From the NCBI GenBank assembly GCA_947503525.1, contig CANNEA010000001.1:434001-498000 (forward strand): 64,000 bases of DNA, read 5' to 3'. This document shows positions 2,702 through 4,317 of the stretch, piece by piece. Position numbers and translations under genes: made by a program. This DNA is from an uncultured Carboxylicivirga sp. (GTDB taxonomy: Bacteria; Bacteroidota; Bacteroidia; Bacteroidales; Marinilabiliaceae). The notes under the pieces were generated by a model. It did no database searches and was not told the origin of the DNA. It saw only the letters and a program-made list of their open reading frames with translations. The number at the start of each line of letters is the position of its first letter. The first letter of the stretch is position 1.

Positions 2702-2807
2702 GATAGTTATTAGCGTAAAGCTAGTGTTTTTTAAATAATTACTTGAGCCGGAATGTGATTGTAAAGGGGAGGGGCTGATTAGAAGTGGAGTATTAAGGTT
2801 GGGATAC

Positions 2808-2841
2808 AAAAAAAGGTTAACTTCTTTCGAAACTAACCTTT
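2808..2841 (-). terminator. Rho-independent terminator, array unit 1
   Basis: On the minus strand AAAGGTTA pairs with TAACCTTT around a loop containing TTTCGAAAGAAG, followed by a run of T. This copy has one substitution that shortens the stem compared with the other three copies. It closes the array upstream of the methylase gene. Confidence 0.7.
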
Positions 2842-2845
2842 GATG

Positions 2846-2902
2846 TGGTGCCACCTGGAATCGCAACGATAGCTATCGTGGCAGGGATACACGGATTTTC
2901 AG
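2846..2902 (-). pseudogene. tRNA-Phe 3' remnant with T-loop insertion, unit 1
   Basis: It matches the intact tRNA-Phe (4064-4136) from the anticodon loop (CTGAAAATCC) to the discriminator base. The three T-arm bases GTT are replaced by 18 bases, CCACGATAGCTATCGTTG. The 5' half (acceptor 5' strand, D arm, anticodon 5' stem) is absent and is replaced by the end of the GIY-YIG gene, so no functional tRNA can form. This copy keeps CCCTG before the insertion, as in the intact gene, while the other two have CTCTG. Confidence 0.85.
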
Positions 2903-2907
2903 GGGTA

Positions 2908-3201
2908 TTATAACGATCCATATTTTACCAAGAGTTTTTTTCCAATGTTAGGATGTAACTTGAAATTTTGATAATAGGTTCTATTTCTGTTTCGCTTGAT
3001 GTGTTTTTCAATAGCAAGTGCCTGTTCTCGTGATTCACAAATAAGACTAAAGAAAATGTACCAGTCATCTGCAAATTTTGTGCTTGCAGTTTTGAATTCG
3101 TGAGAATTGTGCAAAGAAAGTCTACGTTTTAAATCTTCAGATTGGCCAATGTAATACTTGTCGAATTTTGCAGAGTGAATTATATAGACATGAAACGGCA
3201 T
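2908..3201 (-). CDS. GIY-YIG nuclease family protein, copy 1
   Basis: This 97-residue single-domain GIY-YIG protein has VYIIHS (GIY position, residues 5-10), YYIGQ (YIG, 16-20), the following basic LKRRL with the conserved Arg, and the candidate metal-binding Glu in AIEKHIKRN (about 66-74). Such stand-alone URI-type proteins are common in Bacteroidota and lack a DNA-binding domain; their role is not established. This copy differs from copy 3 by SLHN for SWHN, NFKLH for NLKLH and LLVKY for LLIKY. It lies downstream of a terminator and a tRNA remnant. Nothing suggests a pseudogene. Confidence 0.85.
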   Translation of the reverse strand: MPFHVYIIHSAKFDKYYIGQSEDLKRRLSLHNSHEFKTASTKFADDWYIFFSLICESREQALAIEKHIKRNRNRTYYQNFKLHPNIGKKLLVKYGSL

Positions 3202-3213
3202 ATTGTAAGATAC

Positions 3214-3247
3214 AAAAAAAGGTTAACTTCTTTCGAAATTAACCTTT
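3214..3247 (-). terminator. Rho-independent terminator, array unit 2
   Basis: On the minus strand AAAGGTTAA and TTAACCTTT form a nine-pair stem around TTTCGAAAGAAG, followed by T residues. It is the same hairpin that follows the intact tRNA-Phe gene at 4026-4059. Confidence 0.8.
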
Positions 3248-3251
3248 GATG

Positions 3252-3308
3252 TGGTGCCACCTGGAATCGCCACGATAGCTATCGTGGCAGAGATACACGG
3301 ATTTTCAG
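3252..3308 (-). pseudogene. tRNA-Phe 3' remnant with T-loop palindrome, unit 2
   Basis: It is collinear with the intact tRNA from the anticodon loop to the acceptor 3' strand, but carries the perfect 20-base palindrome GCCACGATAGCTATCGTGGC (3269-3288) in the T arm. The 5' half is missing. The stop codon of GIY-YIG copy 2 lies six bases from the remnant. Confidence 0.85.
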
Positions 3309-3313
3309 GGGTA

Positions 3314-3607
3314 CTATAACGATCCATATTTTATCAAGAGTTTTTTTCCAATGTTAGGATGTAACTTGAGATTTTGATAATAGGTTCTATTTCTGTTTCG
3401 CTTGATGTGTTTTTCAATAGCAAGTGCCAGTTCTCGTGATTCACAAATAAGACTAAAGAAAATGTACCAGTCATCTGCAAATTTTGTGCTTGCAGTTTTG
3501 AATTCGTGAGAATTGTGCCAAGAAAGTCTACGTTTTAAATCTTCAGATTGGCCAATGTAATACTTGTCGAATTTTGCAGAGTGAATTATATAGACATGAA
3601 ACGGCAT
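3314..3607 (-). CDS. GIY-YIG nuclease family protein, copy 2
   Basis: This second tandem copy is 97 residues long with all GIY-YIG landmarks intact (VYIIHS, YYIGQ, LKRRL, AIEKHIKRN). It differs from copy 3 by one visible residue, Leu for Gln in ESRELALAIEK. The stop codon is followed almost at once by the tRNA remnant at 3252-3308. The start ATGCCGTTTC lies close downstream of the unit's terminator, so transcription would need a promoter in the short A-rich interval or read-through from tRNA-Phe. Confidence 0.85.
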   Translation of the reverse strand: MPFHVYIIHSAKFDKYYIGQSEDLKRRLSWHNSHEFKTASTKFADDWYIFFSLICESRELALAIEKHIKRNRNRTYYQNLKLHPNIGKKLLIKYGSL

Positions 3608-3619
3608 ATTGTAAGATAC

Positions 3620-3653
3620 AAAAAAAGGTTAACTTCTTTCGAAATTAACCTTT
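3620..3653 (-). terminator. Rho-independent terminator, array unit 3
   Basis: This is the same hairpin as at 3214-3247, displaced by exactly 406 bp: a nine-pair AAAGGTTAA/TTAACCTTT stem plus a T-run on the minus strand. Confidence 0.8.
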
Positions 3654-3657
3654 GGTG

Positions 3658-3714
3658 TGGTGCCACCTGGAATCGCCACGATAGCTATCGTGGCAGAGAT
3701 ACACGGATTTTCAG
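3658..3714 (-). pseudogene. tRNA-Phe 3' remnant with T-loop palindrome, unit 3
   Basis: This remnant is like that of unit 2, with the 20-base palindrome at 3675-3694. The flank differs by single bases only, for example GGTG for GATG just outside the tRNA 3' end. No D arm or 5' acceptor strand remains. Confidence 0.85.
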
Positions 3715-3719
3715 GGGTG

Positions 3720-4013
3720 CTATAACGATCCATATTTTATCAAGAGTTTTTTTCCAATGTTAGGATGTAACTTGAGATTTTGATAATAGGTTCTATTTCT
3801 GTTTCGCTTGATGTGTTTTTCAATAGCAAGTGCCTGTTCTCGTGATTCACAAATAAGACTAAAGAAAATGTACCAGTCATCTGCAAATTTTGTGCTTGCA
3901 GTTTTGAATTCGTGAGAATTGTGCCAAGAAAGTCTACGTTTTAAATCTTCAGATTGGCCAATGTAATACTTGTCGAATTTTGCAGAGTGAATTATATAGA
4001 CATGAAACGGCAT
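3720..4013 (-). CDS. GIY-YIG nuclease family protein, copy 3 (nearest intact tRNA)
   Basis: This copy is 97 residues long and nearest the complete tRNA-Phe gene, so it is probably the parental one. It contains VYIIHS, YYIGQSEDLKRRL and AIEKHIKRNRN with a conserved Asn in the C-terminal helix, meeting the GIY-YIG/URI pattern. The predicted enzyme would nick or cut DNA in a metal-dependent manner; its target is unknown. The intact tRNA-Phe and its terminator lie 50 bases upstream on the same strand. Confidence 0.87.
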   Translation of the reverse strand: MPFHVYIIHSAKFDKYYIGQSEDLKRRLSWHNSHEFKTASTKFADDWYIFFSLICESREQALAIEKHIKRNRNRTYYQNLKLHPNIGKKLLIKYGSL

Positions 4014-4025
4014 ATTGTAAGATAC

Positions 4026-4059
4026 AAAAAAAGGTTAACTTCTTTCGAAATTAACCTTT
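4026..4059 (-). terminator. Terminator of intact tRNA-Phe
   Basis: The hairpin AAAGGTTAA/TTAACCTTT with a T-run begins about five bases past the 3' end of the tRNA at 4064. It is the ancestral copy of the terminator repeated in each array unit. Confidence 0.85.
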
Positions 4060-4063
4060 ATTG

Positions 4064-4136
4064 TGGTGCCACCTGGAATCGAACCAGGGACACACGGATT
4101 TTCAGTCCGTTGCTCTACCAACTGAGCTATGGCACC
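4064..4136 (-). tRNA. tRNA-Phe (GAA), copy A
   Basis: This 73-nt cloverleaf has acceptor GGTGCCA/TGGCACC, D arm GCTCAGTTGGTAGAGC, anticodon loop CTGAAAA inside stem ACGGA/TCCGT, and T arm CCTGG-TTCGATT-CCAGG. The discriminator is A and CCA is not encoded (CAA follows), so CCA must be added enzymatically. The CCGT anticodon stem matches the array remnants, which identifies this gene as their source. Confidence 0.97.
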
Positions 4137-4241
4137 CAGTTATTTCTACAATGTAAAAATAACAAACAATAACCCTTTACCCTTTTTTATTAGTTCTGTC
4201 CCCACAGAAACTAACAAACCCTAAAATCAGTCATTAAAAAC

Positions 4242-4317
4242 TGGTGGTGCCACCTGGAATCGAACCAGGGACACATGGATTTTCAGTCCATTGCTCTACC
4301 AACTGAGCTATGGCACC
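4242..4317 (-). tRNA. tRNA-Phe (GAA), copy B with encoded CCA
   Basis: This second tRNA-Phe is identical to copy A except for a compensated anticodon-stem pair (ATGGA/TCCAT in place of ACGGA/TCCGT). Unlike copy A it encodes the 3' CCA. It lies about 105 bases upstream of copy A in transcription order; the two are probably cotranscribed and processed. Confidence 0.97.

Follow-up and report, generated by a model that had tools for sequence, protein, structure and literature searches.

How does a tRNA gene come to be followed by a head-to-tail series of small nuclease genes, each carrying with it a piece of that same tRNA? The question is raised by a stretch of 64,000 nucleotides from an uncultured Carboxylicivirga sp. 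(assembly GCA_947503525.1, contig CANNEA010000001.1, positions 434,001 to 498,000 of the forward strand), referred to throughout as the window, in which three direct repeats, on the minus strand and spaced 406 bp apart (identity 97.8–99.3%), lie 3' of an intact tRNA-Phe gene. Read in the direction of the tRNA, each unit consists of the tRNA terminator, a 97-codon open reading frame (ORF) for a GIY-YIG protein and a 3' piece of tRNA-Phe. The answer that we regard as likely, judging from the comparison of many such loci, is that these units are minimal, integrase-free, isotype-specific mobile cassettes residing at tRNA genes, each composed of a nuclease and a disabled copy of the host tRNA, which would spread through a cycle of cutting and repair and multiply by tandem amplification.

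A preliminary description of this DNA had already reported the three 406-bp units with their terminator, GIY-YIG gene and tRNA-Phe 3' fragment, and had placed the junction of nuclease gene and fragment at the anticodon loop; the repeats, the ORFs and the Pfam matches bear this out, all three remnants beginning at C32, within that loop. It was also right to place the array directly downstream of an intact tRNA-Phe, but ARAGORN finds two such genes in the window and the array stands behind the second of them (Table 1). What it overlooked is a palindrome: in every remnant the T-loop stretch GGTTCGATTCC is split by GCCACGATAGCTATCGTGGC, which carries a single mismatch in the unit farthest from the tRNA (the T-loop location having been read directly from the sequence). 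Of the 406 positions, 3 separate unit 2 from unit 3 (99.3% identity), and unit 1 shows 8 and 9 differences from these two; beyond unit 3, positions 4021–4081 form the partial start of a fourth unit, and past the most distal tRNA piece there is one additional terminator copy followed by other sequence. Just one ORF of at least 50 amino acids, on the minus strand, lies wholly within each unit; two plus-strand frames with TTG starts (71 and 72 amino acids) span unit borders, and a long minus-strand TTG-start frame from the next gene extends into unit 1. There is no site-specific recombinase in the unit, its sole complete minus-strand ORF being the GIY-YIG gene, nor an HUH Y1 transposase, since Pfam gave only GIY-YIG and T5orf172 (E ≤ 0.001). 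A group I intron was also considered and rejected, an Rfam scan of positions 2500–4600 (E ≤ 1) having returned only tRNA, Plastid-ycf2 and permuted tmRNA.

Arrangements of this kind proved to be frequent. A total of 194 distinct small GIY-YIG proteins were pooled from all sets, with 20 large-ORF loci as controls; it must be borne in mind that array copies are not independent, that some near-identical copies were kept, that isotypes outside the library of 131 tRNAs are missed as remnants, and that the isotype label is that of the nearest tRNA and may err in mixed clusters. An intact tRNA lies within 500 bp of 120 of the 194 genes (upstream of the gene in 97 cases, downstream in 23), always on the same strand (120 of 120), and a tRNA fragment scoring at least 36 bits accompanies 100 of the 194, all 193 such fragments sharing the strand of the gene; none of the 20 control loci has either. 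Profile A1 was made from proteins mostly beside tRNA genes and profile A2 from three such, and scans with both favour that clade; a census using PF01541 is free of this bias. It covers 15 near-complete single-contig genomes (14 of them taken from the profile-match list) and the best 150 of 175 matches, loci being lacking for 1 of 121 small-ORF and 8 of 29 large-ORF matches. Among the matches listed, an intact tRNA lies within 500 bp at 53 of 120 small-ORF loci, as against none of 21 large-ORF loci. The chance rate of such proximity is estimated to be near 1–2%, because seven genomes gave 42–78 tRNA matches each in 3.3–6.6 Mb (counts that may be low, 150 candidates having been scored in each). 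The same listed matches fall into 89 places, 39 of them tRNA-linked, of which 14 are arrays of 2–5 genes; the other 50 include two arrays.

A scan of named genomes with the Phe/Thr-clade alignment gave 40 loci, in 34 of which ARAGORN found a tRNA somewhere (Thr, Phe, Ala, Asn, Pro, Glu, Gly, Lys, Val, Leu, His, Met, Asp, Ile and Tyr all being represented); three of the 40 are labelled Moranbacteria, Microgenomatus and Woesebacteria, where binning errors are possible. A profile of 17 such proteins is matched in 260 of 395 genomes across the phylum Bacteroidota, a figure that may include clades not tied to tRNA. The preliminary description had asked whether GIY-YIG homologues adjoin tRNA fragments elsewhere, allowing that they might never do so: they do so often, and at many isotypes.

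If the units are mobile, one would expect to find the same site both with and without them. In what follows G000 denotes the window's own genome, other G numbers the sampled genomes and L numbers individual loci. With the next gene (by our reading an M16 peptidase) as anchor, the tRNA-Phe locus could be located in every one of the 14 genomes sampled from the genus, with the cassette present in four, absent from nine and unreadable in one; unit number thus varies, rather than all relatives sharing the same three units, an outcome that had been named as speaking against the idea. The filled loci are those of G000, G010 (one unit and a truncated second) and G003 and G006 (in both of which the contig stops within the gene), while the nine empty ones show tRNA-Phe and its terminator, and in G013 the contig stops too early to be read. 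As the motif scan overlooks some true genes, the empty sites were re-examined by tblastn, and none of the 194 small GIY-YIG proteins matched any of the nine. G209, which is from a second genus, carries five such genes in an array at tRNA-Met. Its downstream flank finds 15 other loci of that genus, of which eight have tRNA-Met, and tblastn gave no GIY-YIG match at any of the 15. Between the tRNA terminator and the flank gene there are no more than 330 bp in L281, L282, L283 and L288; the distance is greater in the other four loci with tRNA-Met. Filled and empty alleles of one locus, as are characteristic of homing elements, are therefore found both at tRNA-Phe and at the tRNA-Met of G209. Two of the empty relatives, L063 and L065, share similar sequence (AATTCTGGGTCTA.GCATAAATTTTACAGAG) shortly 3' of the tRNA-Phe terminator, which may be an insertion sequence that exploits this position as well.

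The window's own assembly (6.56 Mb in 39 contigs) holds six GIY-YIG relatives, every one of them at a tRNA gene with remnants: three at tRNA-Phe, one directly 3' of tRNA-Ala(GGC), with a 5' piece and palindrome ahead of the gene and a 3' piece behind it, and a tandem pair (spacing 426 bp) 5' of tRNA-Arg(CCT), in which each gene is preceded by the 5' half of a tRNA-Arg with a palindrome interrupting it. A simple rule emerges from the wider set. Where the intact tRNA is upstream, the cognate pieces beyond the gene comprise 68 3' pieces, 2 5' pieces, 28 internal pieces and 1 whole tRNA, and where it is downstream the cognate pieces before the gene comprise 19 5', no 3' and 5 internal pieces. There are extra pieces on the tRNA's own side (11 3', 21 5', 13 internal and 1 whole for an upstream tRNA; 4 3', 2 5' and 4 internal for a downstream one), and 15 pieces match a different isotype. 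This pattern would be expected for entry of a cassette inside a tRNA gene, with the missing half rebuilt on one side, and the combination of an intact tRNA with a displaced piece at the opposite end is that of tRNA-integrating islands.

The flanks are duplicated too. The 45 bp 3' of the intact tRNA and those 3' of the 3' remnant have a median likeness of 93% (at least 80% in 35 of 51), compared with 56% between loci (6 of 1500), and the stretch 5' of 5' remnants is 84% like that at the tRNA (7 of 12), compared with 47% between loci (0 of 128), a likeness that is partly trivial owing to the arrays. For the 31 single-copy loci with a 3' remnant it is at least 80% in 16, 70–80% in three and below 70% in 12; because these loci split in this way, two classes seem to exist, one representing local duplication of the tRNA end with its terminator and the other cassettes that bring a tRNA end and terminator of their own.

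Isotype specificity rests on the protein tree (FastTree; 194 rows, 93 columns, many open forks). The label tRNA-linked or unlinked changes 7 times on it, as against at least 39 in shuffles, and isotype changes 42 times over 121 rows (one per genome or fetched locus, and isotype), as against at least 82. With the set reduced to 70 rows, one per genus and isotype, there are 27 changes of isotype (shuffle mean 51.3, minimum 45), whereas host family on the same rows needs 38 (shuffle mean 47.0, minimum 41), so the tree tracks tRNA isotype better than host family. In keeping with this, median identity is 48% for proteins at the same isotype in different families (438 pairs) and 41% for those at different isotypes in one genome (128 pairs). 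Cassettes at tRNA-Phe and tRNA-Thr cluster together (6 rows), the window's among them along with those of Algoriphagus and Mongoliitalea; the palindrome lies in the T-loop in the window, G010, L093 and L096, while L098 has a hairpin in the D arm and L211 has one further along the T arm.

As to the protein, the two of the three unit copies that were tested score 52.2 and 50.5 bits with PF01541 (cut-off 22.6), placing them in the GIY-YIG superfamily. Across 17 aligned proteins Y17, G19, R27, H31, N32, A61, E65 and K69 are unchanged, and the invariant Tyr, Arg, His and Glu columns we take to be catalytic. The median dN/dS is 0.22. It comes from 30 pairs out of 267, those in which dS was not saturated; these pairs are not independent, some sharing array copies. 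An AlphaFold2 model of the 97-residue protein (pLDDT 89.7, pTM 0.81) has the strands and helices of a single small domain, so that the separate DNA-binding part seen beside the catalytic domain in I-TevI and SegB is lacking; relatives are mostly 80–105 residues long (median 85). The closest solved structures by sequence are 1zg2 (4.9e-14), 1ywl (6.3e-13) and SLX1 (7cq2, 1.3e-7), with I-TevI (1mk0) at only 0.032, and Foldseek run on the model puts 1zg2 (3.5e-4) and Slx1 first and I-TevI at 1.5. By sequence and predicted fold, then, the protein belongs with the UPF0213/SLX1-like nucleases and not with I-TevI. Family libraries label these proteins by the GIY-YIG domain alone.

The hairpin formed by the palindrome has counterparts in most other remnants. 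In the main count, which omits stems below 50% G+C, a non-terminator hairpin is present in 89 of 114 remnant windows, and the figure for same-sized windows with an intact tRNA at their centre is 16 of 105; a looser first count, which admitted terminators and tRNA arms, gave 91 of 114, as against 4 of 114 windows within genes and 108 of 2280 shuffles. A hairpin touches the remnant in 90 of 140 tRNA-linked elements. Its edges could be searched for at 76 loci. At 37 of these the anticodon arm is wholly or partly replaced, while an interrupted T arm accounts for 8 and an interrupted D arm for 3; at 13 the hairpin extends across arms, at 3 it falls within long tRNAs, and 12 gave no clear picture. 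Certain edges recur: 27 to 45 in three of seven Ala loci, 28 to 46 in four of eight Pro entries (two of which are one array) and 34 or 37 to 48 in 11 of 17 Met entries. By our reading, the hairpin would destroy within the remnant the site that the nuclease recognises.

The main rival to this, which we consider rather unlikely overall, is that the protein recognises or processes its cognate hairpin directly, and not the tRNA sequence, much as a REP-palindrome transposase does, tRNA genes being favoured simply as hairpin-forming DNA. Such an element would suit a protein that is closest to UPF0213 and to the structure-selective SLX1. It would suit also the fact that within isotypes hairpin stems track protein similarity (r 0.34, equalled in 0 of 500 permutations), across isotypes the correlation being weak (r 0.18, 4 of 500 as high), and that in 12 of 17 Met rows the best stem is TCCGCC..GGCGGA while the loops differ. 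Moreover, palindromes are scattered through genomes: the core CGATARYTATCG occurs at 28 places in G000, often outside tRNA loci (reversed control 5), and TCCCGAN{0,8}TCGGGA occurs in 349 of 395 genomes of the phylum and 12 times in the window's own genome (control 0), though not above control in all genomes; the 28 places and 349 genomes exclude the palindrome as a signature of the element only. However, the hairpin may just be inherited along with the cassette, the genes are accompanied by remnants and not by hairpins alone, and no case was traced in which the gene had moved together with a hairpin to a tRNA-free site.

Three loci with altered tRNA copies may be recorded here. L010 (G015:C2) has, at about 2337–2948 on the minus strand and ahead of an intact tRNA-Met with cassettes, eight tRNA-Met 5' pieces at 84-bp spacing, free of any nuclease gene, in most of which TCCCGATAAACATCGGGA or a close variant replaces the anticodon arm; they are perhaps a gene-less derivative. 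A cluster of Thr, Tyr, Thr and Gly tRNAs at L049 (G000:C4:167638) includes a tRNA-like 5' piece with its D-loop replaced by TCCCGATAGCTATCGGGA, and no GIY-YIG match is listed there. L035 (G007:C56) has two near-full-length tRNA-Val copies with a swapped anticodon arm, one of which ARAGORN calls an unknown tRNA with a four-base anticodon, and copies of this type may be misannotated as odd tRNAs.

Taken together, the specific tRNA genes, the remnants and the hairpins suggest how a mobile cassette of this kind might operate. The nuclease would cut one kind of tRNA gene, here tRNA-Phe, inside a tRNA arm; homologous recombination with a cassette-bearing copy would then repair the break, giving an intact tRNA on one side and a displaced piece on the other. 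In the displaced piece the hairpin would occupy the place of the presumed recognition arm, and it is proposed that this protects the piece from renewed cutting and keeps the cassette from being lost between the flanking tRNA repeats. Subsequent breaks, together with the tRNA repeats, could promote tandem amplification, to give the three units seen here. Spread in general is probably by such cutting and homologous repair, with amplification following. The preliminary description had envisaged a nuclease-only element inserting at tRNA genes, an idea well served by the filled and empty sites and by the same anatomy at many isotypes; separate entry of each unit, which it also entertained, fits less well than amplification. 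Its alternative of one insertion later amplified is the best fit for the window, because the units are head to tail and near-identical and because 14 of the 39 listed tRNA-linked places are arrays.

That alternative can be taken further, to a static ancient insertion multiplied by unequal crossing-over, in which the nuclease has no active function and the tRNA pieces serve only as fuel for recombination. The 99.3% likeness and head-to-tail order of units 2 and 3 agree with it, as does the frequency of arrays at tRNA-linked as against other places (14 of 39 and 2 of 50, among the matches listed), but the many isotypes, the isotype-tracking clades, the empty sites and the low dN/dS are all left unexplained, and we judge it improbable. 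Least credible by far is a role in the host, in which the gene would maintain tRNA genes or repair DNA and be found in tRNA operons by chance. It shares the strand of the tRNA and mostly lies just 3' of it (97 of 120), and its relatives are DNA-processing enzymes, but its presence differs within one genus, and around a gene of an operon one would expect neither tRNA pieces nor arrays. Carriage by a phage or plasmid is not supported either, the window protein having no match in phages or plasmids at E 1e-3. With the Met-clade alignment there were 153 pattern matches in viral contigs, none of which was confirmed, while a Met-clade protein matched 12 phage records (the best 10 of the 12 at 32–47% identity); ARAGORN found no tRNA in two phage stretches from the Met-clade matches.

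Several points nevertheless weigh against mobile cassettes as the explanation. What is sequence-based is the anatomy, the empty and filled sites, the isotype-tracking clades, the remnant hairpin and the arrays, and it is from these that we infer cutting, transfer, the repair route and the role of the hairpin in self-protection. The protein has no separate DNA-binding domain, and 54 of the 194 small GIY-YIG proteins have neither a tRNA nor a remnant nearby; a few weak fragments (31–34 bits, at L068 and L224) lie on the opposite strand. The 16 of 31 single-copy loci with flanks at least 80% alike would equally fit local duplication rather than import, and the contrast of filled and empty sites is one among species, not strains. 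Palindromes are also found away from tRNA genes, so that the hairpin may serve another role. Finally, the intact tRNA next to the cassette is identical in sequence to the copies in empty relatives, which leaves its escape from cutting unexplained. Immunity through an anticodon-stem allele was considered, as the array-adjacent tRNA-Phe has ACGGA..TCCGT where its neighbour has ATGGA..TCCAT; it was rejected because the allele does not track the element, ATGGA occurring in both tRNA-Phe copies of the filled G003 and in the second copy of the empty G007.

Among known systems, SLX1 and the UPF0213 proteins (BH0048 and EF2693) are the best matches of the cassette protein in sequence and fold. SLX1 requires SLX4, and for UPF0213 we know of no link to tRNA genes or to mobility; a literature search combining UPF0213 with tRNA found only an unrelated paper. 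With tRNA-integrating islands and prophages the cassettes share the intact tRNA on one side and the displaced piece on the other, but the 406-bp unit has no integrase. REP palindromes are short palindromes found near a RAYT (HUH) transposase gene and dispersed in the genome, and the palindromes here are likewise short, near a nuclease gene and dispersed genome-wide; the enzyme, however, is of the GIY-YIG type instead of an HUH transposase, and tRNA remnants are part of the unit.

The closest parallel in the literature listed is the phage nuclease SegB, a free-standing GIY-YIG homing endonuclease whose gene adjoins tRNA genes (phage T4 segB sits between tRNA genes). T6 SegB is reported to cut tRNA genes and to drive tandem amplification of tRNA and segB (PMC13096335), and by our reading the SegB motif given there, RAWTSGAAC, would be the T-loop sequence on the other strand, that is, the place interrupted in the window's remnants. 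SegB has 221 residues and the cassette profile aligns to the T4 protein over only 22 columns; the cassettes, unlike it, are chromosomal and short, cluster according to isotype and leave behind tRNA remnants that carry hairpins. Their nuclease may thus resemble SegB in its working but come from another lineage. Titles and abstract openings among the matches listed (subscription papers and preprints being outside reach) yielded no chromosomal GIY-YIG genes tied to tRNA genes, and the accessible part of a 2006 phylogenomic survey of the superfamily (PMC1564403) has three mentions of tRNA, none concerning gene location.

A wider reading can be offered tentatively: the cassettes could constitute a class of their own, widespread and still without a name, whose members are the smallest mobile elements to be self-sufficient. 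They would be built on single-domain SLX1-like nucleases that had radiated into clades, each clade tied to a single tRNA isotype or a small number of them and having its own hairpin, which takes the place of the recognised tRNA arm in the displaced remnant; they would spread horizontally according to target and not host lineage, and amplify themselves in tandem. If this is true, the tRNA genes of many Bacteroidota carry a radiation of tiny selfish cassettes, the SegB idea extends from phages to chromosomes and to a second GIY-YIG lineage, and tRNA pseudo-copies and certain assembly breaks at tRNA loci find an explanation; there would also be many natural pairs of nuclease and target from which to learn how an enzyme of 80–100 residues discriminates between tRNA genes.

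Table 1 Features of the tRNA-Phe array, with positions counted from the first letter of the window.
Feature	Position	Strand	Basis and remarks
Intact tRNA-Phe (GAA), first copy, encoded CCA	4242..4317	-	ARAGORN; Rfam RF00005
Intact tRNA-Phe (GAA), second copy, directly before the array	4063..4136	-	ARAGORN; Rfam RF00005
tRNA-Phe terminator hairpin and T-run, 3' of intact tRNA	4026..4059	-	Sequence; near-same terminator at the empty site of G001
Unit 3, 406 bp, closest to the tRNA	3615..4020	-	Direct repeats
Unit 2, 406 bp	3209..3614	-	Direct repeats
Unit 1, 406 bp, most distal, most diverged	2803..3208	-	Direct repeats
GIY-YIG gene of unit 3, 97 aa	3720..4013	-	ORF; PF01541 2.6e-13; UPF0213/SLX1-like
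GIY-YIG gene of unit 2, 97 aa	3314..3607	-	ORF; 99% identity to unit 3 copy
GIY-YIG gene of unit 1, 97 aa	2908..3201	-	ORF; PF01541 7.8e-14
tRNA-Phe 3' remnant from C32, T-loop interrupted, unit 3	3657..3714	-	End counted on sequence
tRNA-Phe 3' remnant from C32, T-loop interrupted, unit 2	3251..3308	-	End counted on sequence
tRNA-Phe 3' remnant from C32, T-loop interrupted, unit 1	2845..2902	-	End counted on sequence
20-bp palindrome, T-loop of unit 3 remnant	3675..3694	.	Sequence
20-bp palindrome, T-loop of unit 2 remnant	3269..3288	.	Sequence
Palindrome with one mismatch, T-loop of unit 1 remnant	2863..2882	.	Sequence
Terminator copy 3' of unit 3 remnant	3620..3653	-	Sequence
Terminator copy 3' of unit 2 remnant	3214..3247	-	Sequence
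Terminator copy 3' of unit 1 remnant	2808..2841	-	Sequence

One minor observation concerns the DNA just past the array, where positions 2686–2701 of the window are a run of 16 T (A on the minus strand) that overlaps, or directly precedes, the likely ATG of a methyltransferase-like gene; such a run could vary in length and so tune the expression of that gene.

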